Positions 12,963 through 34,133 of a stretch of 35,233 nucleotides of DNA are shown here, one piece after another. The notes beneath the pieces were generated by a model. That model was given only the letters and a program-made list of their open reading frames with translations. It was not told where the DNA came from and did no database searches. The DNA comes from Streptosporangiales bacterium (GTDB lineage Bacteria > Actinomycetota > Actinomycetes > Streptosporangiales > Streptosporangiaceae): contig WHSL01000037.1 of the NCBI GenBank assembly GCA_009380095.1, forward strand, positions 1 through 35,233, written 5' to 3'. The position numbers and the translations under genes were made by a program. Position 1 is the stretch's first letter. Each line of letters opens with the position of its first letter.

Positions 12963-13107
12963 CGCGCGACCTCCGTACGCGTGTGGCTCGACTGGACTAA
13001 CCACCCCTGGAGCGTGAGGGGTTACACCAGCGTCGACGAGTCACCTTGGCTGAGCAACCCGTTTGCCGGAACGCGCCATCTCTGCCGCCGCGGTGTCTCT
13101 GTAAGCC

Positions 13108-18656: not shown

Positions 18657-21002
18657 GTGCGCATCGCGGTGCTGGGCGGCGGGCCGGGCGGGTTGTATCT
18701 CGCCGCGCTGGCCAGGCAGCTGAATCGGGATCACGAGGTCACCGTCTGGGAGCGCAACGCGCCCGACGACACGTTCGGCTTCGGCGTCGTGCTGTCGGAC
18801 GAGACGCTCGGCGGCATCGAGCACGCGGACACCGCGATCTTCGCGGCGATGAGCCGGGAGTTCGCCCGCTGGGACGACATCGACGTGCACTACAAGGGCA
18901 CGGTCATCACGTCCGGCGGGCACGGCTTCGCGGCGATGAGCCGGCGGCGGCTGCTCGGCATCCTGCAGGAGCGGTGCGCGGCGCTCGGGGTGGACCTGCG
19001 GTTCCGTACGGAGGCGCCGGACGTCACGGCCCTGTCGGCGGAGTACGACCTGGTGGTGGCCGCGGACGGGGCGAACTCGGCGACCCGTACCCGCTACGCG
19101 GAGGTGTTCCGGCCCGACCTGGAGCGGCGGCGGTGCCGCTACATCTGGCTCGGCACCGACCGGGTGTTCGAGGCGTTCACGTTCGAGGTGCTGGACACTT
19201 CGTACGGGATCATGCAGGTGCACGCGTACCCGTACAGCCGCGAGGCCAGCACGTTCATCCTGGAGATGCACGAGGATGTCTGGCACCGCGCGGGGTTCCG
19301 GGCTCCGCAGGGCCTGCCGCCCGGCGCCAACGACACGGTCTCCATCGAGCGGATCAAGGAGCTGTGCGCGGACCTGCTGGACGGCCACGCGGTGCTCGGC
19401 AACAACTCCAAGTGGATCGACTTCACCACCGTGCGCTGCGCGACCTGGCGGCACGGGAACGTCGTGCTGCTCGGCGACGCCGCGCACACCGCGCACTTCT
19501 CCATCGGCTCCGGCACCAAGCTGGCCATGGAGGACGCGCTCGCCCTGGTGGCCTGCCTGCACGAGCACCCCGACGTGCCCGCGGCGCTGGCGGCGTACGA
19601 GGCGGAGCGGATGCCGGTGGTGGCCTCCACCCAGCGCGCGGCGCAGGCCAGCCTGGAGTGGTTCGAGAACCTGGGGCAGTACACCGGGCAGGAGCCGGAG
19701 CAGTTCGCGTTCAACATCCTCACCCGCAGCCGCCGGGTCACGTATGACAATCTGCGGCTGCGCGACCCGGAGTTCGCCGCCCGGATGGACGCGTGGTTCG
19801 CGTCCGCGCAGGACCCGCCCGCCGAGGTACGGCCGCCGATGTTCCAGCCGTTCCGGCTCGGCGGGCTGGAGCTGGTCAACCGGGTGATCGTGTCGCCGAT
19901 GGACATGTACTCGGCAGTGGACGGGGTGCCCGGCGACTTCCACCTCGTGCACCTGGGGAGCAAGGCGCTGGGCGGGGCGGGCCTGGTGATGACCGAGATG
20001 GTGTGCGTCTCCCAGGAGGGGCGGATCACGCCGGGCTGCGCGGGGCTCTACACGGACGAGCAGGAGGCGGCCTGGCGCCGGGTCGTCGACTTCGTGCACG
20101 CGAACGGGCCGGCGAAGATCGGGCTGCAGCTCGGGCATTCGGGGCGTAAGGGCTCAACGCGGCTCATGTGGGAGGGGATCGACCGGCCGCTGCTCTCGGG
20201 GAACTGGGAGGTCTGTGCGCCGTCGCCGCTCCCGTACGGGCCGGAGAACCAGGTGCCGCGGGAGCTGACCGTCGCCGATCTGGCCGAGATCCGGGAGGAC
20301 TTCACGGCCGCCGCGCGGCGGGCCGTACGGGCCGGCTTCGACCTGCTCGAGCTGCACTGCGCGCACGGGTACCTGTTGTCGTCCTTCCTGTCCCCGCTGA
20401 CCAATCGGCGCACCGACGCGTACGGCGGCGATCTCGAGGGGCGGCTGCGGTTTCCGCTGGAGGTGTTCGACGCCGTACGGGACGTCTGGCCGGGGCCGCT
20501 CAGCGTGCGGATCTCGGCCACCGACTGGTGCCCGGGCGGCGTGGACGTCACCGAGTCCGTGGAGATCGCGCGAGCCTTCGCCGAGCACGGCGCCGCGGCC
20601 GTGGACGTCTCCACCGGTCAGGTCGTGAGCGAGGAGCGGCCGGCGTTCGGCCGGAGCTACCAGACGCCGTACGCGGACCGCATCCGCAACGAGATCGGCC
20701 TCAAGTACGGGGTCGCGGTGATCGCGGTGGGGGCCATCTCCTCCTACGACGACGTCAACTCGATCCTGCTCGCGGGGCGGGCGGACCTGTGCGCGCTGGC
20801 CCGTACGCACCTGTACGACCCGCAGTGGACCCTGCACGCGGCGGCCGACCAGGGCTACGCCGGGCCCGGGGCGGAATGGCCGCTCCCGTTCGCCGCCGGC
20901 TCCCGTCCGCCCGCCACCGGCCGTACCGACGGCCCCCGTCCGCGCCTTCAACTCGTCCGTGAGGGCGACCCCGGGACGCGGCACGAGCGCTGGCGTCCGT
21001 AA
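18657..21002 (+). CDS. Bifunctional FAD monooxygenase / OYE-type reductase (2-aminobenzoyl-CoA monooxygenase/reductase or salicylyl-CoA 5-hydroxylase type)
   Basis: The 781-residue protein starts at GTG 18657. Residues 1-385 form a PHBH-like FAD monooxygenase: GGGPGGLY (7-14), the DG motif LVVAADGANSATR (132-144), and the GD motif VVLLGDAAHTAHFSIGSGTKLAMEDA (269-294). Residues 395-745 form an old-yellow-enzyme TIM barrel: FRLGGLELVNRVIVSPMDMYSA, LQLGHSGRKGS, and LELHCAHGYLLSSFLSPLTNRRTDAYGG. This fusion is known from the anaerobe/aerobe-hybrid 2-aminobenzoyl-CoA pathway, which hydroxylates then reduces the CoA-bound ring, and from actinobacterial salicylyl-CoA 5-hydroxylases. An aryl-CoA ligase gene nearby (21358) could make its substrate. 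I cannot decide between anthraniloyl- and salicylyl-CoA from sequence alone. There is no obvious ribosome site, so translation may be leaderless. Confidence 0.88.
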   Translation: MRIAVLGGGPGGLYLAALARQLNRDHEVTVWERNAPDDTFGFGVVLSDETLGGIEHADTAIFAAMSREFARWDDIDVHYKGTVITSGGHGFAAMSRRRLLGILQERCAALGVDLRFRTEAPDVTALSAEYDLVVAADGANSATRTRYAEVFRPDLERRRCRYIWLGTDRVFEAFTFEVLDTSYGIMQVHAYPYSREASTFILEMHEDVWHRAGFRAPQGLPPGANDTVSIERIKELCADLLDGHAVLGNNSKWIDFTTVRCATWRHGNVVLLGDAAHTAHFSIGSGTKLAMEDALALVACLHEHPDVPAALAAYEAERMPVVASTQRAAQASLEWFENLGQYTGQEPEQFAFNILTRSRRVTYDNLRLRDPEFAARMDAWFASAQDPPAEVRPPMFQPFRLGGLELVNRVIVSPMDMYSAVDGVPGDFHLVHLGSKALGGAGLVMTEMVCVSQEGRITPGCAGLYTDEQEAAWRRVVDFVHANGPAKIGLQLGHSGRKGSTRLMWEGIDRPLLSGNWEVCAPSPLPYGPENQVPRELTVADLAEIREDFTAAARRAVRAGFDLLELHCAHGYLLSSFLSPLTNRRTDAYGGDLEGRLRFPLEVFDAVRDVWPGPLSVRISATDWCPGGVDVTESVEIARAFAEHGAAAVDVSTGQVVSEERPAFGRSYQTPYADRIRNEIGLKYGVAVIAVGAISSYDDVNSILLAGRADLCALARTHLYDPQWTLHAAADQGYAGPGAEWPLPFAAGSRPPATGRTDGPRPRLQLVREGDPGTRHERWRP

Positions 21003-21357: not shown

Positions 21358-22977
21358 TCAGGACTCTCCGGCGGCACGCTTACGGAGGAGGTAGCGCTGG
21401 ATCTTGCCGGTGTTGGTCTTGGGGAGCTCGTCGAGGAACTCGACGCGGCGCGGGTACTTGTACGGCGCGATCGTCTTCTTCGCGAACTCCTGCAGCTCGG
21501 CCGCCTTCACCGCGTCGCCGAAGGCCCCGTCGCGCAGCACCACGTACGCCCCCACGACCGTGCCCCGCTCCGCGTCCGGTACCCCCACGACCGCGGCCTC
21601 CACCACGTCGGCGTGGCCGAGCAGCGCCTGCTCGACCTCGGGCCCGGCGATGTTGTAGCCGGAGGAGATGATCATGTCGTCGCTGCGGGCCTGGTACCAG
21701 AAGTAGCCGTCGGCGTCCCGGATGTAGGTGTCACCGGTGATGTTCCAGCCGTCGACCACGTACGTACGCTGCCGCGTGTCGGACAGGTACCGGCACCCGG
21801 TCGGCCCCTTCACGGCGAGCCGCCCGGCCATGCCGTCGGGCATCCGCCGTCCCTGGGCGTCGAGGATCACGGCCTGGTAGCCGGGCACCGGCCGGCCTGT
21901 GGACCCGGGCCTGATGGCGTCGTCCGCGGAGGCGATGAACACGTGCAGCATCTCGGTCGACCCGATGCCATCGATGATCTTGATGCCGGTCCGGTCGTAG
22001 AAGTCCTGCCACACCGTCGCGGGCAGGTGCTCCCCGGCCGAGATACACCGCCGCAGCCCGCTCAGCTGCTTCGCCTTGCCCATCGCGAGCATCGCGCGGT
22101 ACGCGGTCGGCGCCGTGGACAGCACCGTCGCGCCGTGCTCGGCGATCGCGTCGGCCAACTCGGCCGCGGCCGGCCGCTCCAGCAGCAGTGCGGACGCGCC
22201 CACCCGCAGCGGGAACACCACCACCGCGCCGAGCCCGAACGTGAACCCCACCGGCGGGGAACCGGTGAACACGTCGTCCGGCTCGGGCTTGATCACGTAC
22301 TTGGAGAACGTGTCGGCGATGGCCAGGATGTCGCGGTGGAAGTGCATGGTGGCCTTGGGGCGGCCGGTGGTGCCGGAGGTCGGCGCGAGCATCGCCACGT
22401 CGTCGCCCGCCGTGTCCACCGCGCTGAAGGCGTCGTCCTTGCCGGCGCAGCGCGCGTCGAGGTCGTGCTCGCCCGTCCCGCCGTAGCCCACCACCGGGAG
22501 CCCGGGCAGCGCCTCGTCGAGCTCCGCGAGGAAGCGGTGGTCGCAGACGGCGAGGTCCGGGCGGGTGATGCCGGCCAGCGCGGCGATCTCCGAGGCGCGC
22601 AGCAGCGCCATCGTGGTGACCGCGACGCCGCCGGCCTTGAGCACGGCGAGCCAGGCCACCACGAGCCACGGGTTGTTCGGGCCGCGCAGCAGCACCCGGT
22701 TCCCCGGTACCAGGCCCATGTCCTCCACGAGCAGCCGGGCGAGCCGGTTCGCCTTGCCCTGCACCTCGCCGTACGTCCAGGTCGCCTCGGGGGAGCGCAG
22801 GCAGGGACGGTCCGCGCCGAGACGCGCGATGGTGCCGTCGAGCAGCTCCGCCGCGGCGTTGAGCCGTTCGGGATAGTCGAGCTCCTCCAGATCGAACCGC
22901 AGCTCCGGCCACAGCTCCTGATCGGGCAGGTGATCCCGGCAGAACGTGTCGATGTGCGCTGAACGTGTAAGCCGCAT
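21358..22977 (-). CDS. Aryl-CoA ligase, 2-aminobenzoate/benzoate-CoA ligase type
   Basis: The 539-residue ANL-family enzyme starts at ATG 22977 with GGGAG upstream; the frame extends to 23022 without support. Motifs: P-loop MLAPTSGTTGRPKATMH (about 196-212), GFTFGLGAVVVFPLRVGAS, the A5 motif IIDGIGSTEMLHVFI, the hinge GYFWYQARSDDMIISSGYNIAGPEVE, and the adenylation lysine K525 in PKTNTGKIQRYLL. The HVFIAS after GSTEM and the whole layout match benzoate- and 2-aminobenzoate-CoA ligases, which activate aromatic acids with ATP and CoA. The nearby fused monooxygenase/OYE enzyme suggests 2-aminobenzoate (anthranilate) or a hydroxybenzoate as substrate. A 26-base palindrome lies about 60 bases upstream of the start and is a likely operator. 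Confidence 0.9.
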   Translation of the reverse strand: MRLTRSAHIDTFCRDHLPDQELWPELRFDLEELDYPERLNAAAELLDGTIARLGADRPCLRSPEATWTYGEVQGKANRLARLLVEDMGLVPGNRVLLRGPNNPWLVVAWLAVLKAGGVAVTTMALLRASEIAALAGITRPDLAVCDHRFLAELDEALPGLPVVGYGGTGEHDLDARCAGKDDAFSAVDTAGDDVAMLAPTSGTTGRPKATMHFHRDILAIADTFSKYVIKPEPDDVFTGSPPVGFTFGLGAVVVFPLRVGASALLLERPAAAELADAIAEHGATVLSTAPTAYRAMLAMGKAKQLSGLRRCISAGEHLPATVWQDFYDRTGIKIIDGIGSTEMLHVFIASADDAIRPGSTGRPVPGYQAVILDAQGRRMPDGMAGRLAVKGPTGCRYLSDTRQRTYVVDGWNITGDTYIRDADGYFWYQARSDDMIISSGYNIAGPEVEQALLGHADVVEAAVVGVPDAERGTVVGAYVVLRDGAFGDAVKAAELQEFAKKTIAPYKYPRRVEFLDELPKTNTGKIQRYLLRKRAAGES

Positions 22978-23219: not shown

Positions 23220-23436
23220 AACAAGGGAGCACTACGGCCGCGGCCAGGTCGAAGGCCAGGTCGAAGGCAAGGTCGAAGGTGAGGCCGTCGCGCTGTTGAC
23301 GGTGCTTTCGGCGCGGGGGATCGCGATCTCTCGGGAGCAGCGTGAGCGCGTCGAGGCGTGCACGGACCTCGACCAGCTCGGCGTCTGGGTCAAGCGGGCC
23401 GCGACCGCCTCCGACGCGGACGAGGTCTTCGCCTGA
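23220..23436 (+). pseudogene. C-terminal remnant of an Rpn/PD-(D/E)XK transposase-like nuclease protein
   Basis: The frame ends with GQVEGQVEGKVEGE, AVALLTVLSARGIAISREQRERV and EACTDLDQLGVWVKRAATASDADEVF. This is the typical tail of Rpn-type (recombination-promoting nuclease) proteins that are abundant in Streptosporangiales genomes: a charged VEG repeat, then a helical domain with CTDLDQLxxWxxRA. The N-terminal nuclease domain (more than 200 residues) is absent, and the upstream sequence is C-rich non-coding DNA. The repeat comes from a 12-base tandem unit (GGCCAGGTCGAA, about three copies, 23243-23280). Assignment is from remembered family tails and is moderately sure. Confidence 0.6.
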
Positions 23437-23499
23437 CCCGTTCCCGATCCCCACAGTCGGGGGGAAGGGCTTCCTGACCTCCATGACACCCACGGCGTG

Positions 23500-23532
23500 G
23501 TGGAGGGGCGTTCCGGTGGGAGGCCCCTCCAC
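23500..23532. terminator. Hairpin between convergent genes
   Basis: GTGGAGGGGC (23500-23509) and GCCCCTCCAC (23523-23532) form a perfect 10-base stem with a 13-base loop. It sits between the end of the Rpn-like remnant and the end of the minus-strand flavoprotein gene, so it could terminate transcription from either side. Confidence 0.6.
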
Positions 23533-23538
23533 GGAGCC

Positions 23539-23594
23539 GAGGGCCGAGGGTTGGGCGCCGAGGGCCGAGAGCTGGGGGCCGAGAGCTGCGGGCC
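23539..23594. repeat. 21-base imperfect tandem repeat
   Basis: The unit GAGGGCCGAGAGCTGGGGGCC occurs at 23539-23559 and 23560-23580 (a few differences), with a 14-base partial third copy at 23581-23594. It lies in non-coding DNA 39 bases beyond the stop of the flavoprotein gene at 23633. Confidence 0.7.
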
Positions 23595-23632
23595 GGAGGC
23601 CGGGGGCGGGCGCGGGGCTGGGGAGGCGGAGC

Positions 23633-24868
23633 TTAGGTGAGGCTGGCGAGGTAGTCGGCGGTCTTGTCGGGGTGGAGGATCCAGCGGTCGAAGTCCTCGG
23701 GGTGGGTGTAGCCGTCGGCAAAGCGCTGGGCGACGCGGGGGTCCTCGGCGGCCACGCCGAGCACCTGGAGGAAGTGCTCGGGCGGCGGACCGAGCAGCAT
23801 GTTGCTGAAGTGGGTGCTGTGCCGCGCGTAGTCCCAGTACGCGTCGAACGTCTCCTGCATCCACGCGGGATCGAACGGCCGGTTCCCGTGCTCGAGGATG
23901 TGCCGCAGGTAGATCTCGGCGCAGTGCGCGGCGTTGTTGGCGCCCTGCCCGGCGATCGGGTCGTTGAGCACGACCACGTCCCCCATGCCGAACACGTGCG
24001 CGGTCGCCGACAGCGACCCCACCGGCTTGCGCACCATCGGCACATACCCCCCGTACAGCGTGCAGCGCGGGTCGGTCGGCACGGCGGCGTGCGCGGCGTC
24101 GGCCTCCCACGGGATGTACTCCCGGCACAGCTCGGTGCTGCGCTTGATGAACGCCTCCGGCGACGGCTTGTCCCCCCACACGTCCATCGCCCCGCCCGGC
24201 AGCGCCTCCCACAGCCAGATGTCGCACGCGCCGGAGGTGGTGTAGCCGGGCAGGTAGAACAGCTCACCCACGCCGGGCACCACGTTGATCCGCACCTGGT
24301 GCGTGTCCACCCCGGGCGGCCAGGTCATGCCGTGCATGTACATCGCGGCCAGCTGCCGCATCGGGCGGTCGTACGGGGACCGCTCCGGGTCCCGGTCGAA
24401 GAGCTCGACGAGCTCACCCTTGCCGGCCGCGATCAGCGTGAGGTCGTACAGCTCGGCGAGCCCCTCCAGGTCGGAGGTCATCACGCCGTGGTAGACGACG
24501 TTGCCGCCGCGCGACTCGAACAGCTCCAGCCAGCCGGCCATCTTGACCCGCTGGTCCACCGACTGGCCCTCGAACGCGGGCGCGAAACCCAGTGCCTTCG
24601 TGCCGGGCGGCGCCTGGTCCGGCGGCGCGGCGACCGACACGTTCATCTCCATGATCCGCGGCGTCTCGTGCTCCCACCGGTTGAGACCGTGGTCGCGCTC
24701 GATCGCCAGGCTCGGGCCGAAGAGGCACTGGGTGGAGGTTATTCGCCCGCCGCGCATCTCCTCCGGCGTACGGGCGGACATGATGGTGACCTCGTACCCG
24801 GCCGCCTGCAGGCACAGCCCCAGCTGCATGCCCGCCTGCCCGGCACCGATGATCAAGATCCTTCGCAT
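23633..24868 (-). CDS. Group E flavin monooxygenase, styrene/indole monooxygenase (StyA) family, second copy
   Basis: The 411-residue protein starts at ATG 24868 behind AAGGAGAG. The FAD-binding motif IIGAGQAGMQLGLCLQAAGYEVTIMS opens the protein. Other StyA-family features are VDQRVKMAGWLELFESRGGNVVYHGV, the SDLEGLAELYDLTLIAAGKGELVELFDRD segment, and VFGMGDVVVLNDPIAGQGANNAAHCAEIYL. At the position of the styrene-monooxygenase NTVAH motif it has STQCL. Length matches StyA (about 415) with no fused StyB reductase domain, so it must receive reduced FAD from elsewhere. It lies 52 bases after a close paralogue, and both follow cvnD. The substrate is unknown; indole or another aromatic alkene is plausible from family knowledge. 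Confidence 0.87.
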   Translation of the reverse strand: MRRILIIGAGQAGMQLGLCLQAAGYEVTIMSARTPEEMRGGRITSTQCLFGPSLAIERDHGLNRWEHETPRIMEMNVSVAAPPDQAPPGTKALGFAPAFEGQSVDQRVKMAGWLELFESRGGNVVYHGVMTSDLEGLAELYDLTLIAAGKGELVELFDRDPERSPYDRPMRQLAAMYMHGMTWPPGVDTHQVRINVVPGVGELFYLPGYTTSGACDIWLWEALPGGAMDVWGDKPSPEAFIKRSTELCREYIPWEADAAHAAVPTDPRCTLYGGYVPMVRKPVGSLSATAHVFGMGDVVVLNDPIAGQGANNAAHCAEIYLRHILEHGNRPFDPAWMQETFDAYWDYARHSTHFSNMLLGPPPEHFLQVLGVAAEDPRVAQRFADGYTHPEDFDRWILHPDKTADYLASLT

Positions 24869-24920
24869 CGATCTCTCCTTCGTGGCGGGGGACGAGCCCG
24901 CGTGAGGGTGGAGCCGGTCT

Positions 24921-26165
24921 TCAGGCTCCTACGGAGGCCAGGTAGGCGTCCACTGACTCGGCCTCCATGATCCAGTCCTGGAACTCGCCCGGATAGGCCG
25001 AGCCCCTGACGAATCGGTAGGCGACCTCGGGGTGCTCCACCGCGGCGCCGAGTACGCGCAGCAGATGCTCGGGCGGAGGGCCGAGGACCATGTTCGTGTA
25101 CCGGGTGACCGGCCCGGCGTACTCCCAGTACTCCTCGAAGGTCTCCCGCATCCACTTCTCGTCGAACGGCCGGTCACCGTGCGCGAGGATTCGCTTCAGG
25201 TAGATGTCGGCACAGTGGCAGGCGTTGTTGGCTCCCTGGCCGGTGATCGGGTCGTTGGCCACGACGACGTCGCCCATGCCGAACACCAGCGCCGTGTCGG
25301 ACAGCCGGCCCACCGGGTCGCGCACCACCGGGGCGTACCCGCCGATCAGGGTGGACCTGGCGTCGGTCGGCTCCGCGTCCTTGAACCTCTCGTACTCCCA
25401 GGGCAGGTACGTCCCCAGCAGCTCCAGCGTGCGCCGGAGGTGCTCGCCGGGGCCGGGCCGGTCGTCCCACACGTCGAGGGGGCCGCCCGGGATGGCCTCC
25501 CAGAGCAGGATTTCGCACGCCCCGGTGTGGGTGTAGCCGGGCATGATGATGGCCTCGCCGACCCCGGGCACGACGTTGATCCGCACGTGCGGCTCGGGGT
25601 ACTCGGGCATCGGTGTCGAACCGTGCACGTAGATGCCGGCCAGGTGCCGCTGCGGACGGTCGTAGGGGGAGCGGCCGGCGTCCCGGTCGAACAGCTCCAC
25701 GAGCTCGCCCTTGCCCGCGGCGATGATCGTCAGGTCGTAGAGCTCGCTCAGCCGCTCGAGGTCGGAGGTCATCGCCCCGTGGTAGACGACGTTGCCGCCG
25801 CGCTGCTCGAACAGCTCCAGCCAGCCGGCCATCTTCACCCGCTGGTCGACCGACTGTGCGTAGGAGTCCCACCGGCCGATGAAGGTGAAGCCCATGGTGC
25901 CAGGCGGAGCCTCGTCCGGCGGCGCCGCGACCGTGGACCGCTGCCCCACGATCCTCGGGGTGCTGGGCTCCCACAGGTCCAGTCCGTTCTCACGCTCGAT
26001 GTCGAGGCTGGTCCAGAACATCACCTGCGTCGAGGTGACCCGGCCCGCTCGGATCTCCTCCGGGGTGCGGGCCGACATCATGGTGATCTCATAGCCCCTG
26101 GCCTGCAGACACAGCGCCAGCTGCAGCCCACCTTGTCCGGCTCCGACGATCAAGATCCTGCGCAA
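24921..26165 (-). CDS. Group E flavin monooxygenase, styrene/indole monooxygenase (StyA) family, first copy
   Basis: The 414-residue protein starts at TTG 26165, supported by a clear GGAAGG ribosome site. It has the same architecture as its downstream paralogue: IVGAGQGGLQLALCLQARGYEITMMS at the N-terminus, SVDQRVKMAGWLELFEQRGGNVVYHG, and GMGDVVVANDPITGQGANNACHC. The motif STQVM at the NTVAH position fits the S-x-Q-x-M fingerprint I recall as typical of the indole-monooxygenase branch. It begins 51 bases after the stop of cvnD on the same strand, so it is probably cotranscribed with the conservon. Two similar but clearly diverged copies suggest different substrates, or a two-component pair as in StyA1/StyA2 systems. 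Confidence 0.87.
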   Translation of the reverse strand: MRRILIVGAGQGGLQLALCLQARGYEITMMSARTPEEIRAGRVTSTQVMFWTSLDIERENGLDLWEPSTPRIVGQRSTVAAPPDEAPPGTMGFTFIGRWDSYAQSVDQRVKMAGWLELFEQRGGNVVYHGAMTSDLERLSELYDLTIIAAGKGELVELFDRDAGRSPYDRPQRHLAGIYVHGSTPMPEYPEPHVRINVVPGVGEAIIMPGYTHTGACEILLWEAIPGGPLDVWDDRPGPGEHLRRTLELLGTYLPWEYERFKDAEPTDARSTLIGGYAPVVRDPVGRLSDTALVFGMGDVVVANDPITGQGANNACHCADIYLKRILAHGDRPFDEKWMRETFEEYWEYAGPVTRYTNMVLGPPPEHLLRVLGAAVEHPEVAYRFVRGSAYPGEFQDWIMEAESVDAYLASVGA

Positions 26166-26216
26166 CGCTGCCTTCCTTCCTGATTCGAAGCGGGAGAACG
26201 GGCGCGGACCGCGCGC

Positions 26217-26834
26217 CTACCGTCTGGCCAGCGTGCCTTGCTCCCCGGCGGCGTTCGCGCTGGCGACCTCCAGGGAGTGGGTCAGCGCCGTGACGAGCGT
26301 CTGGACGACGGACTGCCGGTCCCGCGCGTCGCAGGCGATGAGCGGCACGTTCTTCGACAGCCGCAGCGCCTCGCGGACCTCGTCGAGCGCGTGCGTCTGT
26401 ACGCCGTCGAAGAGGTTGACCCCGACGATGAACGGCACGTCGGTGTCGTTCTCGAAGTAGTTGACCGCGGCGAACGAGGCGTCCAGCCGCCGGGTGTCGA
26501 CGAGCACGACGGCGCCGCTGGCACCCCGGCACAGGTCGTCCCACATCTGCCAGAAGCGCGCCTGGCCGGGCGTGCCGAACAGGTAGAGCAGCAGGTCCTG
26601 GCTGAGGGTGATCCGGCCGAAGTCCATCGCGACCGTGGTGGTGGTCTTGTCGTCGTCGGTGTAGACCGCGTCGACCGTCTTGCTGGCCTGCGTCATCCAC
26701 GCCTCGGTGTTCACCGGCGGGATCTCCGACACCGCGCTGACCAGGGTTGTCTTTCCGACTCCGAAGCCGCCAGCGACAACGATCTTGACCGAGGTCGGTA
26801 GCGGCGCACCCTCAGGCGAGGTCGCGAAGGCCAT
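26217..26834 (-). CDS. cvnD: Conservon small GTPase-like protein CvnD
   Basis: The 205-residue protein starts at ATG 26834, overlapping the end of cvnC by 23 bases. It shows the Ras-like P-loop AGGFGVGKTT (21-30), a G2-like TTTTVAMDFGRI, the G3 region YLFGTPGQARFWQMWDDL and a degenerate G4 motif GVNLFDG in place of NKxD. These are the features of CvnD, the MglA-like GTPase of actinobacterial conservons, which acts with CvnA-C as a membrane-associated signalling complex compared to eukaryotic G-protein systems. It is followed by two flavin monooxygenase genes on the same strand. Confidence 0.93.
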   Translation of the reverse strand: MAFATSPEGAPLPTSVKIVVAGGFGVGKTTLVSAVSEIPPVNTEAWMTQASKTVDAVYTDDDKTTTTVAMDFGRITLSQDLLLYLFGTPGQARFWQMWDDLCRGASGAVVLVDTRRLDASFAAVNYFENDTDVPFIVGVNLFDGVQTHALDEVREALRLSKNVPLIACDARDRQSVVQTLVTALTHSLEVASANAAGEQGTLARR

Positions 26835-27156
26835 GAATGACTCTCTTCAGTACTCGCGGGTCGTACGGGGACGTGAGCGCCTCGGCGTTGAGCTCCAGCC
26901 GGCCACCGGCCGCGAGGTCCCCCAGCAGCACCCGGGTGACTCCCAGCGGCACGCCGCAGTTGGCGGACAGCTCGGCGACCGACTCCACGCCGTCGTGCGC
27001 GCGCTCGTACAGCGACCGCGCCTCCGGCAGCAGCCGCGCGGCGAACGCGGGGTCGTAGTGGGGCGCGCTGACCAGGGTGTGCACATGCAGCGTCTGACGG
27101 GTGCGGGTACGCCCGCCGGTCAGCACGTAAGGCCGCACCCAGGGATTGGCGGTCAT
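26812..27156 (-). CDS. cvnC: Conservon DUF742 protein CvnC
   Basis: The 114-residue protein starts at ATG 27156 (GAGAGGCTGGAG upstream); the longer open frame to 27336 is antisense-like noise over cvnB. It begins NPWVRPYVLTGGRTRTRQTLHVHTLVSA and carries the winged-helix-like DUF742 core SVAELSANCGVPLGVTRVLLGDLAAGGRLELNAE, ending DPRVLKRVIHGLRDLA. DUF742 proteins are the third component of conservons, between the roadblock protein and the GTPase, and are thought to bridge them. Confidence 0.92.
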   Translation of the reverse strand: MTANPWVRPYVLTGGRTRTRQTLHVHTLVSAPHYDPAFAARLLPEARSLYERAHDGVESVAELSANCGVPLGVTRVLLGDLAAGGRLELNAEALTSPYDPRVLKRVIHGLRDLA

Positions 27157-27187
27157 CTCCAGCCTCTCGCGTCTGGCCCGGGGCCGG

Positions 27188-27634
27188 TCACGATGCGCTC
27201 CCCGCCGACATGCGGCGCAGGTCCTCGCGCATCTTGGGGGTGAGGACATGGCCGACGCTGTCGACCAGCTGGGCCATCCGGTACGCCACGGCCCCGAGGT
27301 TCGCGCCGTCCTGCACGTGAACGGCGAGGCCGGCAAGGCTGCCGATGCCCATGAACAGGAAGTGCCCGCCCGGGAACTTCAGCATGATCTGGTCGCAGCC
27401 GGTCTCCCCGACCTGCTTGGCGATGTTCACGCCCAGCGCGATGAGGCCACTGGTCATCGCGGACAGCGGGTCGGCGACGTCGTTGGACATGCCCGCCGAG
27501 GCGATCAGCGGAAGCCCGTCGGAGGACACCACCAGGGCATGTTTCACGCCGGGGGTCGAGGACGCGAAGTTATTGATCAACCAGCCGAACTCCTGGGGAT
27601 TGCGCGGCTGGGCGGCGCTTGCCGGCATGTTCAC
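27188..27634 (-). CDS. cvnB: Conservon roadblock/LC7 protein CvnB
   Basis: The 148-residue protein starts at GTG 27634 (or ATG 27628, two codons later), overlapping the stop of cvnA by GTGA. The roadblock/LC7 fold is seen in EFGWLINNFASSTPGVKHALVVSSDGLPLIASAGM and then VADPLSAMTSGLIALGVNIAKQVGETG. MglB-like proteins of this family act on their partner small GTPase, so CvnB probably regulates CvnD. Operon order A-B-C-D is standard. Confidence 0.93.
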   Translation of the reverse strand: MNMPASAAQPRNPQEFGWLINNFASSTPGVKHALVVSSDGLPLIASAGMSNDVADPLSAMTSGLIALGVNIAKQVGETGCDQIMLKFPGGHFLFMGIGSLAGLAVHVQDGANLGAVAYRMAQLVDSVGHVLTPKMREDLRRMSAGSAS

Positions 27635-28989
27635 TGTTCTTCCAGGTCGTCGTCGGCAGGGGTGGAGGTGGCGGGTGGGGGAGACGAGGGGGCGGCCGTG
27701 CCGGCCTGCCGTGCCTCCCTGTCGCCGCTGGTGAACGCGTCGAGGTCGGCCGCGAACGACGAGCGGGCCGCGGAGCCGGTCTCGGCGTCGCCGGTCTCGC
27801 CGGTCGTGCCGGCGGTCGTGCCCGGGGCGGCCTCGGCGGGGGCGCCGGGCGTGGCCTCGCCGGCCGGCCGTGGTGCGGCCCCGCCGCGCAGGCTCGTCCG
27901 GGTCCGCCGGGGCAGCTGTCCCGGCCGCTCCATGCCCGGCTCGTCCTCGGTGCCCGGTTCCGGGCGCGGCCGGAGGTCGCGGGTGAGCGGCTCGGCCGCC
28001 GGCGCGGCGTTCGGCAGCTGGGCCACGGTGAGCCGGGCGGACGGCCCGGTGTCGTGGTCGCCCGGACCGTACGAGCCCGCGGGCGCGAGCGCCGGCTGGG
28101 TGGACTGCGGGACCTCGCAGAGCAGCGCCGGCGGGATCACCGCCATGGCGATGGTGCCGGTGGTGCCGGGGCCGGGGGACTGGCGCACGGCCAGCCGTAC
28201 GCCGATGCCGTGCTTGGCGGCGAGCCGGTGCACCACTGGGAAGCCGGTGTGCTTGCCGGTGTACTCGTCCACCTCGGGGACCGGCCCGGCGAGCACGCTG
28301 TTCAGCGTCGCCAGGTGGTCGGTGGCGATGCCGATGCCGGCGTCCTCGATGCGGATCATCACGCTGCCGTCGTGCGTCAGGTGCGCGCTGACCGTGACCG
28401 TGGTCGGCGAGTACTTCGTCGCGTTGTCGAGCAGCGCGGCGAGCAGCGACGCGACGTCGTCGGCGGCGTATGCGGGGACGGCGAGGTCGGTGACGGTGCC
28501 GATGGAGATCTGCGTGTAGCGCTCGATGGAGGACTCGGCGACCCGGATCACGTCGACCAGCGAGCTCGTGTACCCGGCCATCTCCTCGTTCCGGCCGCCG
28601 GCCAGCACGCGCAGGTCGCGGGCCGCCCGCCGCATCCGGGTCACGGCGTGGTCGACCTGGTAGAGGCGGTGCAGCCGGTCGGCGTCGTCCTCGTCCTTCT
28701 CCAGCCGGTCCAGCGCCGGGCGCAGATGTTCGGCGAGCACCAGCAGCTGCAGCGCGAACTGGTCCGCGATGCCCGCCCAGGCTCCGCTCGGCGCGGGTGC
28801 CGACGGCGGCTCGGGCGGCGTCGACGCGGGCGCGGGCGTGATCTCACCGTGCGGCACGGCGGCAGGCGGGGCAGCATCGGCAGGCGGCGCACCGTCGGCG
28901 GGGAGGGCCGGGCCTTCGGCGCCGGCGGCCGCCGCGGGGTCGTGCTCCGGGCGGCGCGACAGCAGGCCACGCCATCGCCCCCGCCTCAT
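27631..28989 (-). CDS. cvnA: Conservon sensor-kinase-like ATPase CvnA, without membrane sensor
   Basis: The 452-residue protein starts at ATG 28989 (GGAAG about ten bases upstream); the frame stays open far upstream but only as antisense of livJ. Residues 1-75 are Pro/Ala-rich. A helical dimerisation region follows (ADQFALQLLVLAEHLRPALDRLEKDEDDADRLHRLYQVDHAVTRMRRAARDL), then a HATPase domain with N-box LLDNATKYS, G1 IEDAGIGI and G2-like GFPVVHRLAAKHGIGV. The C-terminal 130 residues are again Pro/Ala/Thr-rich. Many CvnA proteins have two membrane helices and an extracellular sensor; none is visible here, so this one is probably cytoplasmic. It heads cvnABCD and the two flavin monooxygenase genes. 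Confidence 0.9.
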   Translation of the reverse strand: MRRGRWRGLLSRRPEHDPAAAAGAEGPALPADGAPPADAAPPAAVPHGEITPAPASTPPEPPSAPAPSGAWAGIADQFALQLLVLAEHLRPALDRLEKDEDDADRLHRLYQVDHAVTRMRRAARDLRVLAGGRNEEMAGYTSSLVDVIRVAESSIERYTQISIGTVTDLAVPAYAADDVASLLAALLDNATKYSPTTVTVSAHLTHDGSVMIRIEDAGIGIATDHLATLNSVLAGPVPEVDEYTGKHTGFPVVHRLAAKHGIGVRLAVRQSPGPGTTGTIAMAVIPPALLCEVPQSTQPALAPAGSYGPGDHDTGPSARLTVAQLPNAAPAAEPLTRDLRPRPEPGTEDEPGMERPGQLPRRTRTSLRGGAAPRPAGEATPGAPAEAAPGTTAGTTGETGDAETGSAARSSFAADLDAFTSGDREARQAGTAAPSSPPPATSTPADDDLEEQ

Positions 28990-29409
28990 GATGGTCGCTT
29001 CTTCCTGCGAAAACTGCCGAGACGTGCGGTTTTTGGCAGCAATGTGGACCTCAGGACTCAATCGACCGGGAAACGACAAGGCAAGAGATTGGCACAGGAG
29101 CGCCCGGAGTGAAAGGCCGGAATCAGATTCTACTTCAACTTCCGGTGCGACCATTTTGCGGTGATTCATGCGAAATGTGCGGGTTTGAGGTGGCGAAATG
29201 CCCGATGGGGCCCGTCCGCATCGCTGCGCCGGGTGCGAACGATCACACCGGATCTCCCGCCGCGCCGAAGGGTCCGGGGGGGGGCGACACGCAGGGCCCG
29301 GCATGACAACAATGAGATCTCGTTGAGCGTCGTCACGTCCGTATTGGGATAGGACCCACGGCGGTACCGGCCGGCCGCCGCCGGGTGCGCGTACCTCGAG
29401 GAGGAAACA
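28990..29409. promoter_or_regulatory. Divergent promoter region between cvnA and the liv operon
   Basis: This 420-base gap serves both the minus-strand conservon operon and the plus-strand liv operon. It is less GC-rich than its surroundings on the cvnA side (for example around 29021-29200) and includes a 9-base G run (29276-29284). The near-perfect 16-base palindrome at 29310-29325 is described separately. No gene was recognised in it. Confidence 0.5.
29310..29325. promoter_or_regulatory. Palindrome upstream of livJ-type gene
   Basis: CAATGAGATCTCGTTG is self-complementary at 14 of 16 positions around GAGATCTC. It lies 85 bases before the start of the binding-protein gene at 29410 and is a reasonable operator for a dimeric regulator of the importer. 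The regulator is not in the window. Confidence 0.45.
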
Positions 29410-30621
29410 ATGCGCAATCGTCCGTTCCCTCGAATAGGCGTCTCGGTACTCGCCGCGGTCCTGGCCCTGGGCGCGTGCGGCACCCGCAGTGAGGAGACCG
29501 GCGCCACCACCACACTGAAGATCGGCTTCGACGCGCCCACCACCGGGCAGTTGTCGGCCGTCGGGCTCGGCATGCAGCACTCCGCTGAGATGGCCGTCAA
29601 GGAGGCCAACGCGAAGAACCTGGTGCCGGGCGTGAAGTTCGAGCTCGTGCCCAAGGACGACCAGGCGACCCCGTCCATCGGGCAGCAGAACGCCAGCGCG
29701 TTCGTGGCCGACCAGGACGTCGTCGGCGTGGTGGGCGCGTACAACTCCAGCGTCTCGCAGTCCATGCAGCCGACCACGGCCTCGGCGAACCTGCTGCAGA
29801 TCTCCGGCGCCAACACCAACCCCACGCTGACCCGCGGGGCGAAGCACAAGGACGCTCCGAAGCGGCCGTACAAGAACTACTTCCGTACGGTGACCACGGA
29901 CGCCAAGGAGGCGCCCGCGGTCGCTCGGTACGCGTACAACGAGCTGAAGCTCAAGGAAGTCGCCACCGTCAACGACGGCAAGGTGTACGGCCTCGGCGTG
30001 ATCGAGGAGTTCACCCACGAGTTCGAGAAGCTCGGCGGGAAGATCGTGGTCAAGCAGCAGATCAGCGACAAGGACACGGACTACTCCGCGGTCGTATCCA
30101 ACATCAAGAGCTCGTCGGCCCAGGCGCTCATGTACGGCGGCGAGTACCCGCAGGCCGGCCCGCTGGCCAAGCAGCTCAAGGCGGCCGGCAAGGACATTCC
30201 CCTGCTCGGAAACGACGCGGTGTACGACGACGAGTTCATCGCGCTGGCCGGGGACGCGGCCGAGGGCGCGTACGTCGTCACCGCCGCGGAGCCGATCGGC
30301 AACTCGCAGGTGCAGCAGAAGTTCGTCACCGACTACAAGGCGGCGAGCCACAAGGAGCCGTACGGCATCTTCGGCCCGTACGTCTACGACGCGACGATGG
30401 CGATCATCAACTCGGTCGCCGCGGTGGCGAAGGCCGGCGACGGCAAGCTGCCCGAGAAGCCGGAGCTGCGCGCCAAGGTCACCGAGGCCGCGCAGAACGT
30501 CGCGTTCGACGGGCTCACCGGCAAGATCGCCTTCGACGAGTTCGGCGACAACAAGAACTACTCCGTGACCATGAACACCGTGAAGGACGGCAAGTGGTCG
30601 GTGGTCGGGCCCGTCGGCTGA
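29410..30621 (+). CDS. Branched-chain-amino-acid-type ABC transporter substrate-binding lipoprotein
   Basis: The 403-residue protein starts at ATG 29410 with GAGGA upstream. It has a lipoprotein signal with lipobox LGAC (cleavage before Cys23). The mature part is a Peripla_BP_6 (LivJ-type) protein: LKIGFDAPTTGQLSAVGLGMQHSAEMAVKEAN, then FVADQDVVGVVGAYNSSVSQSMQP, then VYGLGVIEEFTHEFEKLGGKIV and GIFGPYVYDATMAIINSVA. Such proteins capture branched-chain amino acids, amides or aromatic acids outside the membrane and deliver them to LivHM. It is the first gene of a complete five-gene importer and is probably the most highly expressed of them. Confidence 0.92.
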   Translation: MRNRPFPRIGVSVLAAVLALGACGTRSEETGATTTLKIGFDAPTTGQLSAVGLGMQHSAEMAVKEANAKNLVPGVKFELVPKDDQATPSIGQQNASAFVADQDVVGVVGAYNSSVSQSMQPTTASANLLQISGANTNPTLTRGAKHKDAPKRPYKNYFRTVTTDAKEAPAVARYAYNELKLKEVATVNDGKVYGLGVIEEFTHEFEKLGGKIVVKQQISDKDTDYSAVVSNIKSSSAQALMYGGEYPQAGPLAKQLKAAGKDIPLLGNDAVYDDEFIALAGDAAEGAYVVTAAEPIGNSQVQQKFVTDYKAASHKEPYGIFGPYVYDATMAIINSVAAVAKAGDGKLPEKPELRAKVTEAAQNVAFDGLTGKIAFDEFGDNKNYSVTMNTVKDGKWSVVGPVG

Positions 30622-30646
30622 TCCATCCCCGTCGGAGGAAAACCGG

Positions 30647-31627
30647 GTGACCCTGACCGAGCTGCTGCAGCTCACCACCGGTGGCGTCGTGCTCGGCGCC
30701 ATGTACGGCCTCATCGCCGTCGGCTACACGATGGTGTACGGCATCGTCCAGCTGATCAACTTCGCGCACGGCGAGATCTTCATGCTCGGCGCGTTCGGCG
30801 CGTTGTTCGTGTACGCGTGGGTGCCCGCGCTGCACGAGATCTCGCTGTGGCTGGCGCTGCCGATCATGCTCGCCGCCGGCACGGTGATCTCCGTGGTGGC
30901 CGCCGTCGCCGCGGAGCGGTTCGCGTACCGGCCGCTCCGCGGCGCCCCTCGGCTGGCACCGCTGATCACCGCGATCGGGCTGGCCATCGTGCTGCAGCAG
31001 CTCATCTTCCTGTACGCGCCGCTGCGGGAACTGCGGGACGATCGCTGGGAGACCACGGTGGGCGCCAAGCAGCCGCAGCTCTTCCCGCAGCTGCCGGGGG
31101 AGGCGCTGCAGCTCGGCGGGGTGACCGTGCAGTGGGCGGACGTGCTGACGCTCGGGTTCGCGGTGGTGGCGATGCTCGGGCTGGCGTACTTCGTGCGCCG
31201 CACCCGTACCGGCCGGGCCATGCAGGCCGCCGCGCAGGACCCGGACATCGCGCGGCTGATGGGCATCGACGTCGACAAGATCATCGTGATCGCGTTCGCC
31301 ATCGGCGGGGCGCTGGCCGCCGCGGCCGGGCTCGCGCACGGGCTGCGGTACGGGCAGATCACCTTCGACATGGGCTTCATCGCCGGGCTCAAGGCGTTCA
31401 CCGCGGCGGTGCTCGGCGGCATCGGCAACGTGTACGGGGCCATGCTCGGCGGGATCGTGCTCGGCGTGGTCGAGTCCCTGGCGGCCGGGGGGCTCAGCTA
31501 TGTGGACGCCGTACAGCAGTTCGGCGGCGGCGCGTGGAAGGACGTGTGGGCGTTCGTCGTGCTCATCCTGGTCCTGCTGATACGCCCGCGGGGGCTGCTC
31601 GGCGAACGAACCGGGGACCGCGCGTGA
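30647..31627 (+). CDS. livH: ABC transporter permease, LivH type
   Basis: The 326-residue permease starts at GTG 30647 behind GGAGGAAA. It shows eight or so membrane helices and LivH motifs: GAMYGLIAVGYTMVYGIVQLINFAHGEIFMLGAF at the N-terminus, RMGxxxRA-like RTGRAMQAAAQDPDIARLMGIDVDKII (the EAA-like coupling region), and FIAGLKAFTAAVLGGIGNVYGAMLGGIVLGVVES near the C-terminus. It overlaps the LivM gene by GTGA, indicating coupled translation. It forms the membrane channel together with LivM. Confidence 0.93.
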   Translation: MTLTELLQLTTGGVVLGAMYGLIAVGYTMVYGIVQLINFAHGEIFMLGAFGALFVYAWVPALHEISLWLALPIMLAAGTVISVVAAVAAERFAYRPLRGAPRLAPLITAIGLAIVLQQLIFLYAPLRELRDDRWETTVGAKQPQLFPQLPGEALQLGGVTVQWADVLTLGFAVVAMLGLAYFVRRTRTGRAMQAAAQDPDIARLMGIDVDKIIVIAFAIGGALAAAAGLAHGLRYGQITFDMGFIAGLKAFTAAVLGGIGNVYGAMLGGIVLGVVESLAAGGLSYVDAVQQFGGGAWKDVWAFVVLILVLLIRPRGLLGERTGDRA

Positions 31628-33339
31628 GCGGAGCGGGGGCACGGCGCGCGATCGTGCCGGCGCCGGCGGCGGGGCGCGGGACCGTGGCGCGGGCCCTGGT
31701 CACGGCCGGCGCGGCCGTCTCCGCCGGCTCCACCTTCCTGCCCTGGACGTGGACCGCCAGCTTCCCCGGCGACCTCACCGTGGCCGGGTACCCGGGCGGC
31801 AACCAGGTGATCACCCTGGTCGTCGCGCTGGTCATGCTGGCGTACTGCGGCGCCGCGTACGGCCTGCCGGGCCTGCGCGCGCTCGCCCCGCGCGGCGCCA
31901 CCCCCGCGCTGCGCGCGCTCGCCCTGGCGCTGGCCGTCTCCACCGGCTACGTCCTCGCCGCGATCGCGATCACGCTGGGCGGGCTGGTCAACTGGGTGCC
32001 CGGCTCGTGGGTGGCGGCGGTGGCCGTCCTCCTCACGCTGCTCGCGGCGCTGGCCCTGCCGGACGACCGGCGGGACGCGCCGCCCCCGGCGCCCGGGCCG
32101 CGCTGGCGGGAGACCCTGGTGGTCTTCGCGGTGCTGCTCGGCGGCCTGGTGCTGGCCGACTACGGGCTGGCCACCGAGCACACGGAGCAGTTCATCGGGT
32201 ACGTGCTCGCGCTCGGCTTCGCGGTCCGCGGGCTCGGGGTCAGCGGCCTGCCCGCGGTGATCTCCGCGCTGATCGCCCGCAACCGGGTGGCGACCTCGGT
32301 GGCGGCGCTCTGCGCGGGCCTGGCGTTCGCCGTCATCCAGACCTCCGGCGCGTACACCTCGCTCGCGGCCAACGTGCTGATCTTCGGCGCGGTGGCGCTC
32401 GGGCTGAACATCGTGGTCGGGCTGTCCGGGCTCCTCGACCTCGGGTACGTGGCGTTCCTCGGGGTCGGCGCGTACGCGGGCGCGCTGGTCTCCGGGTCCA
32501 CGTTCTCCCGGTTCACCGGGACGCCGCTGCCGTTCTGGGCGGCCGTACTGATCGGCATCGCCGTCGCCGTGCTGGCCGGGGTCGTGATCGGCGCGCCGAC
32601 GCTGCGGGTGCGCGGCGACTACCTCGCCATCGTCACACTCGGCTTCGGGGAGATCTTCCGGATCGTGGTGAACAACCTGGACGGCGTCTCCGGGCCGCAG
32701 CTCACCAACGGGCCCAACGGCATCCCGAACATTCCGGACCTGGTGATCTTCGGGTACGACTTCGGCGAGGAGCACACGGTGCTCGGCGTGACGTTCGGGC
32801 GCTTCACGAACTACTACCTGCTGCTCGTGTTGGTCATCGCGGTCATGGTGTTCGTCTTCGCCCGGGTCGGCGACTCCCGGATCGGCCGCGCCTGGGTGGC
32901 GATCCGCGAGGACGAGGTGGCCGCGCAGGCCATGGGCGTCAACACGTTCCGGCTCAAGCTGCTGGCCTTCGCGCTCGGCGCCGCGATGGCCGGGCTCGCC
33001 GGGACCGTACAGGCGCACGTCACCACGACCGTCACGCCGGACCAGTATCAGTTCCTGTCCACGGCGCCGCCAAACTCAGCGTTCCTGCTGGCCGCCGTGG
33101 TGCTCGGCGGGATGGGGACGATCACCGGGCCGCTGCTCGGCGGCGCGCTGCTGTTCGTGATCCCGGAGAAGCTGGAGTTCTTCGAGGACAAGCAACTGCT
33201 GCTGTTCGGGCTCACGCTGATCCTGATGATGCGGCTGCGGCCGGAGGGCATCGTGCCGAACCGGCGGCGGCAGCTGGAGTTCCACGAGGAGGAGATCGCG
33301 GGCCGGGAGGGCCGCGCCGTCGCGGGGGTGGGCGCGTGA
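31624..33339 (+). CDS. livM: ABC transporter permease, LivM type, with long N-terminal membrane extension
   Basis: The 571-residue protein starts at GTG 31624 within the LivH stop. The conserved LivM core lies in about residues 235-555: ANVLIFGAVALGLNIVVGLSGLLDLGYVAFLGVGAYAGA, GAPTLRVRGDYLAIVTLGFGEIFRIVVNN, then WVAIREDEVAAQAMGVNTFRLKLLAFALGAAMAGLAG and PPNSAFLLAAVVLGGMGTITGPLLGGAL. The first 230 residues add about six extra hydrophobic segments absent from the 300-420-residue LivM of proteobacteria. Similar extensions occur in other actinobacteria. It overlaps the LivG gene by GTGA. Confidence 0.92.
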   Translation: MSGAGARRAIVPAPAAGRGTVARALVTAGAAVSAGSTFLPWTWTASFPGDLTVAGYPGGNQVITLVVALVMLAYCGAAYGLPGLRALAPRGATPALRALALALAVSTGYVLAAIAITLGGLVNWVPGSWVAAVAVLLTLLAALALPDDRRDAPPPAPGPRWRETLVVFAVLLGGLVLADYGLATEHTEQFIGYVLALGFAVRGLGVSGLPAVISALIARNRVATSVAALCAGLAFAVIQTSGAYTSLAANVLIFGAVALGLNIVVGLSGLLDLGYVAFLGVGAYAGALVSGSTFSRFTGTPLPFWAAVLIGIAVAVLAGVVIGAPTLRVRGDYLAIVTLGFGEIFRIVVNNLDGVSGPQLTNGPNGIPNIPDLVIFGYDFGEEHTVLGVTFGRFTNYYLLLVLVIAVMVFVFARVGDSRIGRAWVAIREDEVAAQAMGVNTFRLKLLAFALGAAMAGLAGTVQAHVTTTVTPDQYQFLSTAPPNSAFLLAAVVLGGMGTITGPLLGGALLFVIPEKLEFFEDKQLLLFGLTLILMMRLRPEGIVPNRRRQLEFHEEEIAGREGRAVAGVGA

Positions 33340-34133
33340 CGGTGCTCGACGCACGTGGCGTGACCATGCGGTTCGGCGGGCTGACCGCGGTGAAGGGGGT
33401 TGACCTCAGCGTCGCGGAGGGTGAGATCGTCGGGCTGATCGGGCCGAACGGGGCCGGGAAGACGACGTTCTTCAACTGCCTGACCGGGCTCTACACGCCG
33501 ACCGCAGGGGAGGTGCGGTATCGCGGTTCCCGGCTGCCCGCCCGCCCGCACGAGGTGACCCGCGCCGGGGTGGCCCGTACGTTCCAGAACATCCGGCTCT
33601 TCCCGAACATGACCGTGCTGGAGAACGTCCTGGTAGGGCGGCACGTACGGATGCGTGAGGGGTTGTTCTCGGCCATCGGCCGCAGCCCGCGCTACCGGCG
33701 TGCCGAGCGGGAGGCCCGGGAGGCGGCGCGGGAGCTGCTCGACTTCGCGGGCATCGGCGGGCAGGCATCGTCGCTGGCGCGCAACCTGTCGTACGGCGAC
33801 CAGCGGCGGCTGGAGATCGCCCGCGCGATGGCGTCGGGCCCGGGCCTGCTGCTGCTCGACGAGCCGACCGCGGGGATGAACGCGCGGGAGACCCGGCAGG
33901 CCCGTGACCTGGTACTGGCGATCCGCGGCCGGGGTGTCGCGGTGGTGGTGATCGAGCACGACATGCGCTTCATCTTCGGCGTCTGCGACCGGGTGGCGGT
34001 GCTCACCCAGGGCGAGAAGCTCGTCGAGGGCGCGCCGGCGGAGGTGCGGGCCGACGAGCGGGTGATCGCGGCGTACCTCGGCACGCCCGCCGGCGACGGG
34101 CCGGGCGGCGCGGCGCGGGGGGAGGGGGACTGA
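33336..34133 (+). CDS. livG: ABC transporter ATP-binding protein, LivG type
   Basis: The 265-residue ATPase starts at GTG 33336. Motifs: Walker A GPNGAGKTT (36-44), Q-loop RTFQNIRLFPNMTVLENVLVG (81-101), signature LSYGDQRRLEIARAM (151-165), Walker B LLLLDEPTAGMN (171-182) and H-loop VVIEHDM. LSYGDQ and the RTFQNIRLF pattern are LivG hallmarks. A Gly-rich tail (GDGPGGAARGEGD) ends the protein. It shares one base with the LivF gene (TGATG) and powers import with it. Confidence 0.94.
   Translation: MTVLDARGVTMRFGGLTAVKGVDLSVAEGEIVGLIGPNGAGKTTFFNCLTGLYTPTAGEVRYRGSRLPARPHEVTRAGVARTFQNIRLFPNMTVLENVLVGRHVRMREGLFSAIGRSPRYRRAEREAREAARELLDFAGIGGQASSLARNLSYGDQRRLEIARAMASGPGLLLLDEPTAGMNARETRQARDLVLAIRGRGVAVVVIEHDMRFIFGVCDRVAVLTQGEKLVEGAPAEVRADERVIAAYLGTPAGDGPGGAARGEGD

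Follow-up and report, generated by a model that had tools for sequence, protein, structure and literature searches.

A group E flavoprotein gene recurs directly behind cvnD in actinobacterial conservons

The window analysed here, which is an entire contig of 35,233 nucleotides from a Streptosporangiales bacterium (WHSL01000037.1), carries on its minus strand a conservon, cvnA-cvnB-cvnC-cvnD, followed by two tandem genes (S1 and S2) for flavoproteins of group E, indole-monooxygenase branch. Our comparison of gene neighbourhoods shows, by gene order and domain matches, that the conservon with a flavoprotein as its fifth gene is a recurrent subtype, and the flavoprotein appears to be a lasting component of this signalling system that has been overlooked. 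Conservons are numerous in actinomycetes that make antibiotics and, to our knowledge, little is known of the signals they receive and the effects they have. Judged by domain content, the flavoprotein is a further accessory class beside the P450 (CvnE) and GAF (CvnF) proteins, the named accessory types after cvnD (PMC13343842, PMC8510531). CvnE and CvnF conservons share the four core genes and their arrangement, and likewise have an extra gene directly after cvnD, but the one here encodes a group E flavoprotein. The open-licence literature covered (titles, abstracts and passages; supplementary tables and older subscription papers lay outside its scope) yielded no description of a flavoprotein fifth gene.

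The recurrence is clearest in a set of 80 named loci, the best 80 of at least 589 stretches encoding a relative of S1. At 79 of them cvnD lies directly upstream on the same strand, with cvnC also present at 78 of the 79 and all four cvn genes at 70. They include Actinomadura, Streptomonospora, Murinocardiopsis, Prauserella, Amycolatopsis, Frankia, Pseudonocardia, Saccharopolyspora, Actinopolyspora, Streptomyces and Actinacidiphila. The gap between cvnD and the flavoprotein gene spans -8 to 142 bp, and at 17 loci it is -8, i.e. the cvnD stop overlaps the flavoprotein start by eight bases; no fused cvnD-flavoprotein frame occurred among 180 loci. In S. rhizosphaerae (L198), cvnD is short and possibly broken, and cvnA-C are not in view. 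A draw across the phylum gave a PF17885 match in 22 of 396 genomes, with cvnD upstream at 14 loci, all from one genus (g48), and absent at 12 other loci. Within this genus, which we take for Streptomyces from the grouping of its CvnDs with those from named members, a family member is present in 58 of 61 genomes, and cvnD is upstream at 30/30 inspected loci (the 30 best-scoring of 66 places). The original prediction, made from the window alone, would have fallen had the gene order failed to recur elsewhere; it clearly recurs in both the named and the g48 loci.

Nearer to the window, 200 genomes drawn from its order gave a PF17885 match in 118. Among the matches listed we took 100 loci (the 80 best-scoring outside the window genome and 20 chosen lower down), which divide into 33 with cvnC and cvnD, six with cvnD only, two with cvnB-cvnC without cvnD and 59 with none, a 33/6/2/59 split that is not an unbiased rate. 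Upstream cvnD is thus found at 39 of the 100 loci, 33 of them with cvnC; L091 and L097 have both genes. Seven loci, with identical flavoproteins, are shared between the order set and the named set, and L241 was left out of one comparison for its odd frame. Seen from the conservon side, genomes that all carry PF17885 matches gave 56 cvnC places, three of them in the window genome; four lack cvnD, and two of the places are one region. At 37 places a same-strand open reading frame follows within 300 bp, and it encodes a P450 in six cases, a PF17885 protein in three and a GAF protein in two. The earlier proposal that a conservon can include a protein of oxygenase type which is not a P450 is borne out by the named loci, whereas its further suggestion of outputs that make or destroy an aromatic signal is conjectural; its picture of oxygenases as the genes after cvnD fits P450s and flavoproteins but is too narrow, since GAF proteins occur there too (PMC8510531; two of these 37). 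Likewise, the tandem pair that it described is real in the window but is not typical, a single copy being the rule: tandem flavoprotein genes were seen at L096 and at 5/80 named loci. In the tree, the pair of the window is separate from these, so that the flavoprotein gene was probably duplicated more than once.

At the window locus, HATPase, roadblock, DUF742 and Ras-like GTPase genes are contiguous on one strand, which makes it a conservon, and the anatomy is as originally described, coordinates included. The histidine-kinase-like CvnA (27631..28989, minus strand, like all six genes; 452 amino acids) has a HATPase_c domain and a C-terminal LPxR motif, LPRR at residue 359; its start was taken at 28989, and a longer mechanical reading frame to 30714 was discarded because it underlies a plus-strand transporter gene of the ATP-binding cassette (ABC) type. 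The Roadblock/LC7 gene cvnB (27188..27634; PF03259, 1.7e-13) begins with a GTG that overlaps the cvnA stop by 4 bases, and is followed by cvnC (26812..27156; DUF742, PF05331, 7.8e-26; 114 amino acids). The Ras-like small GTPase CvnD (26217..26834; ATP_bind_1/Ras, PF03029, 1.6e-29; 205 amino acids) displays the motifs of a conservon GTPase, namely GGFGVGKT (P-loop), NLFD (G4) and DAR (G5); definitions of these motifs and of LPxR are those of PMC4316618. Behind it come S1 (24921..26165; PF17885, 2.2e-41; 414 amino acids), whose TTG start at 26165 is immediately preceded by AGGAAGGAAGG, and S2 (23633..24868; PF17885, 5.9e-38; 411 amino acids). From cvnA to S2, the successive spacings are -4, 31, -23, 51 and 52 bases. 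A consensus scan of 23300-29420 returned 0 promoter-like and 0 terminator-like sites, where shuffles expect 0.3 and 1.4, which is weak either way. By the DUF742 marker (four matches), the window genome holds four conservons. At another of them (L138), a flavohaemoglobin-like gene with globin, flavin adenine dinucleotide (FAD) and NAD domains lies 173 bases on, possibly by chance.

The two flavoproteins are 64% identical. S1 shares 48-49% identity with the solved indole monooxygenase VpIndA1, and its AlphaFold model (S1 was modelled alone; mean predicted local distance difference test score 92.3) superposes on that structure with a template-modelling score of 0.96; together with PF17885, this places S1 in the indole-monooxygenase branch of the group E fold shared by VpIndA1 and StyA, and S2 is placed there by sequence. 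The predicted likeness to indole monooxygenases is thereby upheld, whereas StyA, invoked in the same breath, is farther away: Pseudomonas StyA is 28% identical to S1, and the StyA-proper equivalog NF045732 was not reached (209.9 and 207.2 bits against a cut-off of 550). Pfam lists neither a P450 nor a GAF domain for S1 or S2, so neither counts as CvnE or CvnF. Both copies have the GxGxxG motif at residue 8 (GAGQGG and GAGQAG), and, when S1 is taken as reference, S2 departs at none of 74 positions common to the reductase-linked and the conservon-linked proteins; thirteen positions distinguish these two groups. The scaffold is intact. At positions provisionally assigned to the indole-monooxygenase fingerprint, S1 keeps five and S2 three of the six residues. 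The published fingerprint reads S46-Q48-M50-V/I73-I76-A96 (PMC13101512). Its isoleucine at position 76 is where the groups part: 118 conservon-linked rows have leucine in 64, glutamine in 40 and isoleucine in one, versus isoleucine in 34 and valine in 15 of 61 unlinked rows. By these residues S2 is further from the fingerprint than S1, its pocket apparently having drifted after the duplication in the window. A divergent conservon-linked type (L104, L105, L122, L125 and relatives), about 40-43% identical to S1, has lost 16 positions common to the other linked and the reductase-linked proteins, S45 and N304 among them (nine reductase-linked rows compared), and may be inactive.

The conservon-linked proteins also differ in their neighbouring gene. 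A StyB-type flavin reductase gene lies directly 3' of the flavoprotein gene at 37 of the 59 unlinked order-set loci (gap -4 to 67), versus 0/33 conservon-linked, 0/6 cvnD-only, 0/2 cvnB-cvnC and 0/80 named loci in a hidden Markov model scan, in which one linked order-set locus offers less than 700 bases of downstream sequence. The original remark that no StyB is encoded beside the window's flavoproteins is correct and extends well past the window: PF01613 is absent from the contig, no StyB-type reductase adjoins the flavoprotein at the linked loci checked, and the four PF01613 genes of the genome are located on other contigs. Absence of an adjacent reductase is thus a property of the whole conservon-linked clade in the loci checked. 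In a 72-row flavoprotein tree, five reductase-linked rows stand on one side of a branch (support 100/99), with 59 cvn-linked rows and eight rows with neither partner on the other. This tree does not include L117, L118, one copy of L126 or the two reductase-linked rows L110 and L112, the last two being omitted as long branches. The reductase-linked rows make one clade only without L110, which falls in a distant group in another tree. The loci compared show, at the level of gene order, a GTPase gene in place of the reductase gene as neighbour. The tree being unrooted, we infer the direction of the change, in which the reductase would have been replaced by CvnD. Compared with VpIndA1 and its group E relatives, S1 has the fold, the FAD motif and, at the positions so assigned, five of the six fingerprint residues, but differs in overall sequence, at position 76 and in having a GTPase gene next to it instead of a reductase gene. 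For a well-studied enzyme family, this suggests a switch of neighbour gene from reductase to GTPase.

Six loci from five genera retain only cvnD and the flavoprotein gene, without cvnA, cvnB or cvnC in about 5 kb upstream. Their GTPases keep the P-loop and DAR motifs and form one group (support 100). Three of these loci, from three genera (L077, L084 and L096), have the order molybdopterin dehydrogenase-CoxG-cvnD-flavoprotein; a SecA-like gene comes next at L077 and L084.

The architecture of CvnA separates the Streptomycetaceae from the remaining loci. A NIT sensor domain was found in 23/23 Streptomycetaceae CvnAs tested and in 0/48 of the others, the window's group; the 71 CvnAs tested (70 named plus the window) come from 72 found, nine of the 80 named loci being without a CvnA to test. 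The window CvnA matched neither NIT nor HAMP, and no transmembrane segment was called in it, the top 19-residue hydropathy of 1.54 being below the threshold of 1.6; a membrane-spanning CvnA with a sensor or HAMP part is common but varies between clades, and was not used as a defining conservon trait. CvnE and CvnF have been described as accompanying CvnA proteins without sensory domains (PMC13343842). The flavoprotein of the window's group fits this accessory-gene rule, but its occurrence with NIT-bearing CvnAs in Streptomycetaceae departs from it, so that the recent statement tying accessory genes to sensor-less CvnAs needs qualifying. Because these CvnAs carry a sensor of their own, the flavoprotein is not required merely as a substitute for one.

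The Streptomyces conservon concerned is probably cvn5, as far as synteny can tell. Around cvnC in three g48 genomes there is a gene for a Lon protease, about 5 to 11 kb away, and one for an OmpR-type response regulator, about 11 to 18 kb away; in one of the three (G222) a histidine kinase gene adjoins the regulator gene. The assignment relies on this regulator, since the OmpR system SCO5282/5283 of S. coelicolor is near CvnA5, SCO5289 (PMC9739842). The literature lists cvn5 among the conservons whose CvnA bears NIT (PMC8510531), and all three cell-wall antibiotics repress conservon 5, among others (PMC3123327). An enzyme conserved beside the GTPase gene, in Streptomyces probably that of cvn5, would offer a concrete handle on a substrate, a product and a binding partner.

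How the flavoprotein works with the conservon can be framed in several ways, and our best model, held tentatively, is that of a flavoenzyme effector working with CvnD. The flavoprotein would most likely still be an FAD-dependent monooxygenase that obtains its reduced FAD from a general reductase of the cell, and its substrate would be small and probably aromatic or N-heterocyclic, but need not be indole. It would act downstream of CvnD or bound to it, the nucleotide state of CvnD being set by CvnA, CvnB and CvnC; in the window, the flavoprotein gene occurs twice, and S2 has apparently drifted in its pocket residues. The effector direction is favoured because cvnD-only loci exist and because a precedent is known: in the mfp conservon of Mycobacterium, the fifth gene (mfpA) directly follows the GTPase gene, as the flavoprotein gene does here, and the GTPase, when in its GTP form, binds MfpA (PMC4316618). 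The recurrent gene order, the missing neighbouring reductase, the eight-base overlap at 17 named loci, the intact scaffold and the NIT sensors of Streptomycetaceae likewise count in its favour. Several observations weigh against this model. Over 71 loci, the flavoprotein distances correlate with those of CvnD (rho 0.71) no better than with those of CvnA (0.73), CvnB (0.73) or CvnC (0.83), and mostly less than the core proteins correlate with one another (0.79 to 0.89). The flavoprotein thus co-diversifies broadly with the cvn genes, but CvnD, having the lowest value, is not singled out, and this weighs slightly against an effector. Moreover, flavoprotein-adjacent CvnDs do not form one clade, the label needing four changes on the tree; in two genomes (L123 and L124) the flavoprotein gene follows cvnB and cvnC with cvnD missing; the sole named exception, Saccharopolyspora flava (L194), has a flavoprotein without a conservon in view; activity on indole is doubtful because almost no conservon-linked row keeps the fingerprint residue at position 76; and CvnF8 modulates the autophosphorylation of CvnA8 (PMC13343842), a precedent that involves CvnA and not CvnD. 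A farther-reaching form of the effector model appears doubtful to us, namely that CvnD took the place of StyB. There, a Ras-like GTPase would directly gate a flavin monooxygenase, cvnD and the flavoprotein gene would be the minimal module with the full conservon as upstream control, and the product would be a small-molecule conservon output in most Streptomyces.

The modulation of CvnA8 points towards an input, in which the flavoprotein would be a cytosolic sensor or modulator (of redox state, FAD or an aromatic ligand) acting on CvnA, with catalysis secondary or lost. A similar role has been proposed for CvnE and CvnF, which go with sensor-less CvnAs (PMC13343842); the lack of NIT in the CvnAs of the window's group, the missing adjacent reductase and the change at position 76 would agree with it. 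The NIT domains of Streptomycetaceae, the six cvnD-flavoprotein loci without cvnA and a scaffold conserved as in active relatives speak the other way, and we consider an input role unlikely. Co-expression, in which a conventional group E monooxygenase serving aromatic metabolism would share the conservon promoter and regulation without protein contact, is a possible but rather unlikely account. It could draw on the molybdopterin dehydrogenase and CoxG genes that adjoin three cvnD-only loci, on the four unlinked flavin reductases of the window genome, and on two genes near the flavoproteins in the window: a benzoate-CoA-ligase-like gene (21361-22977, minus strand; 363.8 bits, just under the cut-off of 375.25) and a bifunctional salicylyl-CoA 5-hydroxylase/oxidoreductase gene (18657-21002, plus strand; over the family cut-off). 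At the 100 order-set loci, however, neither of these two genes is closely matched, the gene order is conserved across families down to the 8-base overlap at 17 loci, and none of the linked loci checked has a dedicated reductase. The same catabolic-looking genes might suggest that an unrelated pair landed behind cvnD by chance in the window genome alone, but the recurrence at named and g48 loci contradicts this and makes it very improbable.

Co-expression also has a parallel in S. coelicolor, where cvn13 (SCO7463) adjoins the indole prenyltransferase and flavin monooxygenase genes SCO7467/SCO7468 (PMC3617294, PMC9739842), i.e. a conservon upstream of tryptophan/indole-modifying genes, here for 5-dimethylallylindole-3-acetonitrile. 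This case differs from the window's arrangement in that SCO7468 resembles N-oxide-forming monooxygenases and itself uses reduced nicotinamide adenine dinucleotide phosphate (NADPH), and in that the genes are biosynthetic (PMC3617294).

Among candidates for a wider role of the window's neighbourhood, an indole-to-anthranilate catabolic cluster, which the ligase and hydroxylase genes would suit together with the indole-monooxygenase-like pair, was dropped as a general explanation, tblastn of the two genes at the 100 order-set loci giving only three ligase-family matches of 30-33%. On the other side of the conservon, an operon for a branched-chain-amino-acid-type ABC transporter (substrate-binding protein, permeases and ATPases; 29410-34843, plus strand) begins 420 bases from cvnA, and the two, being on opposite strands, possibly have a common intergenic region. 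Farther off in the window, a gene at 11091-13004 (minus strand; PF03235, PF07510) encodes a GmrSD-type restriction endonuclease, a family known from phage defence.

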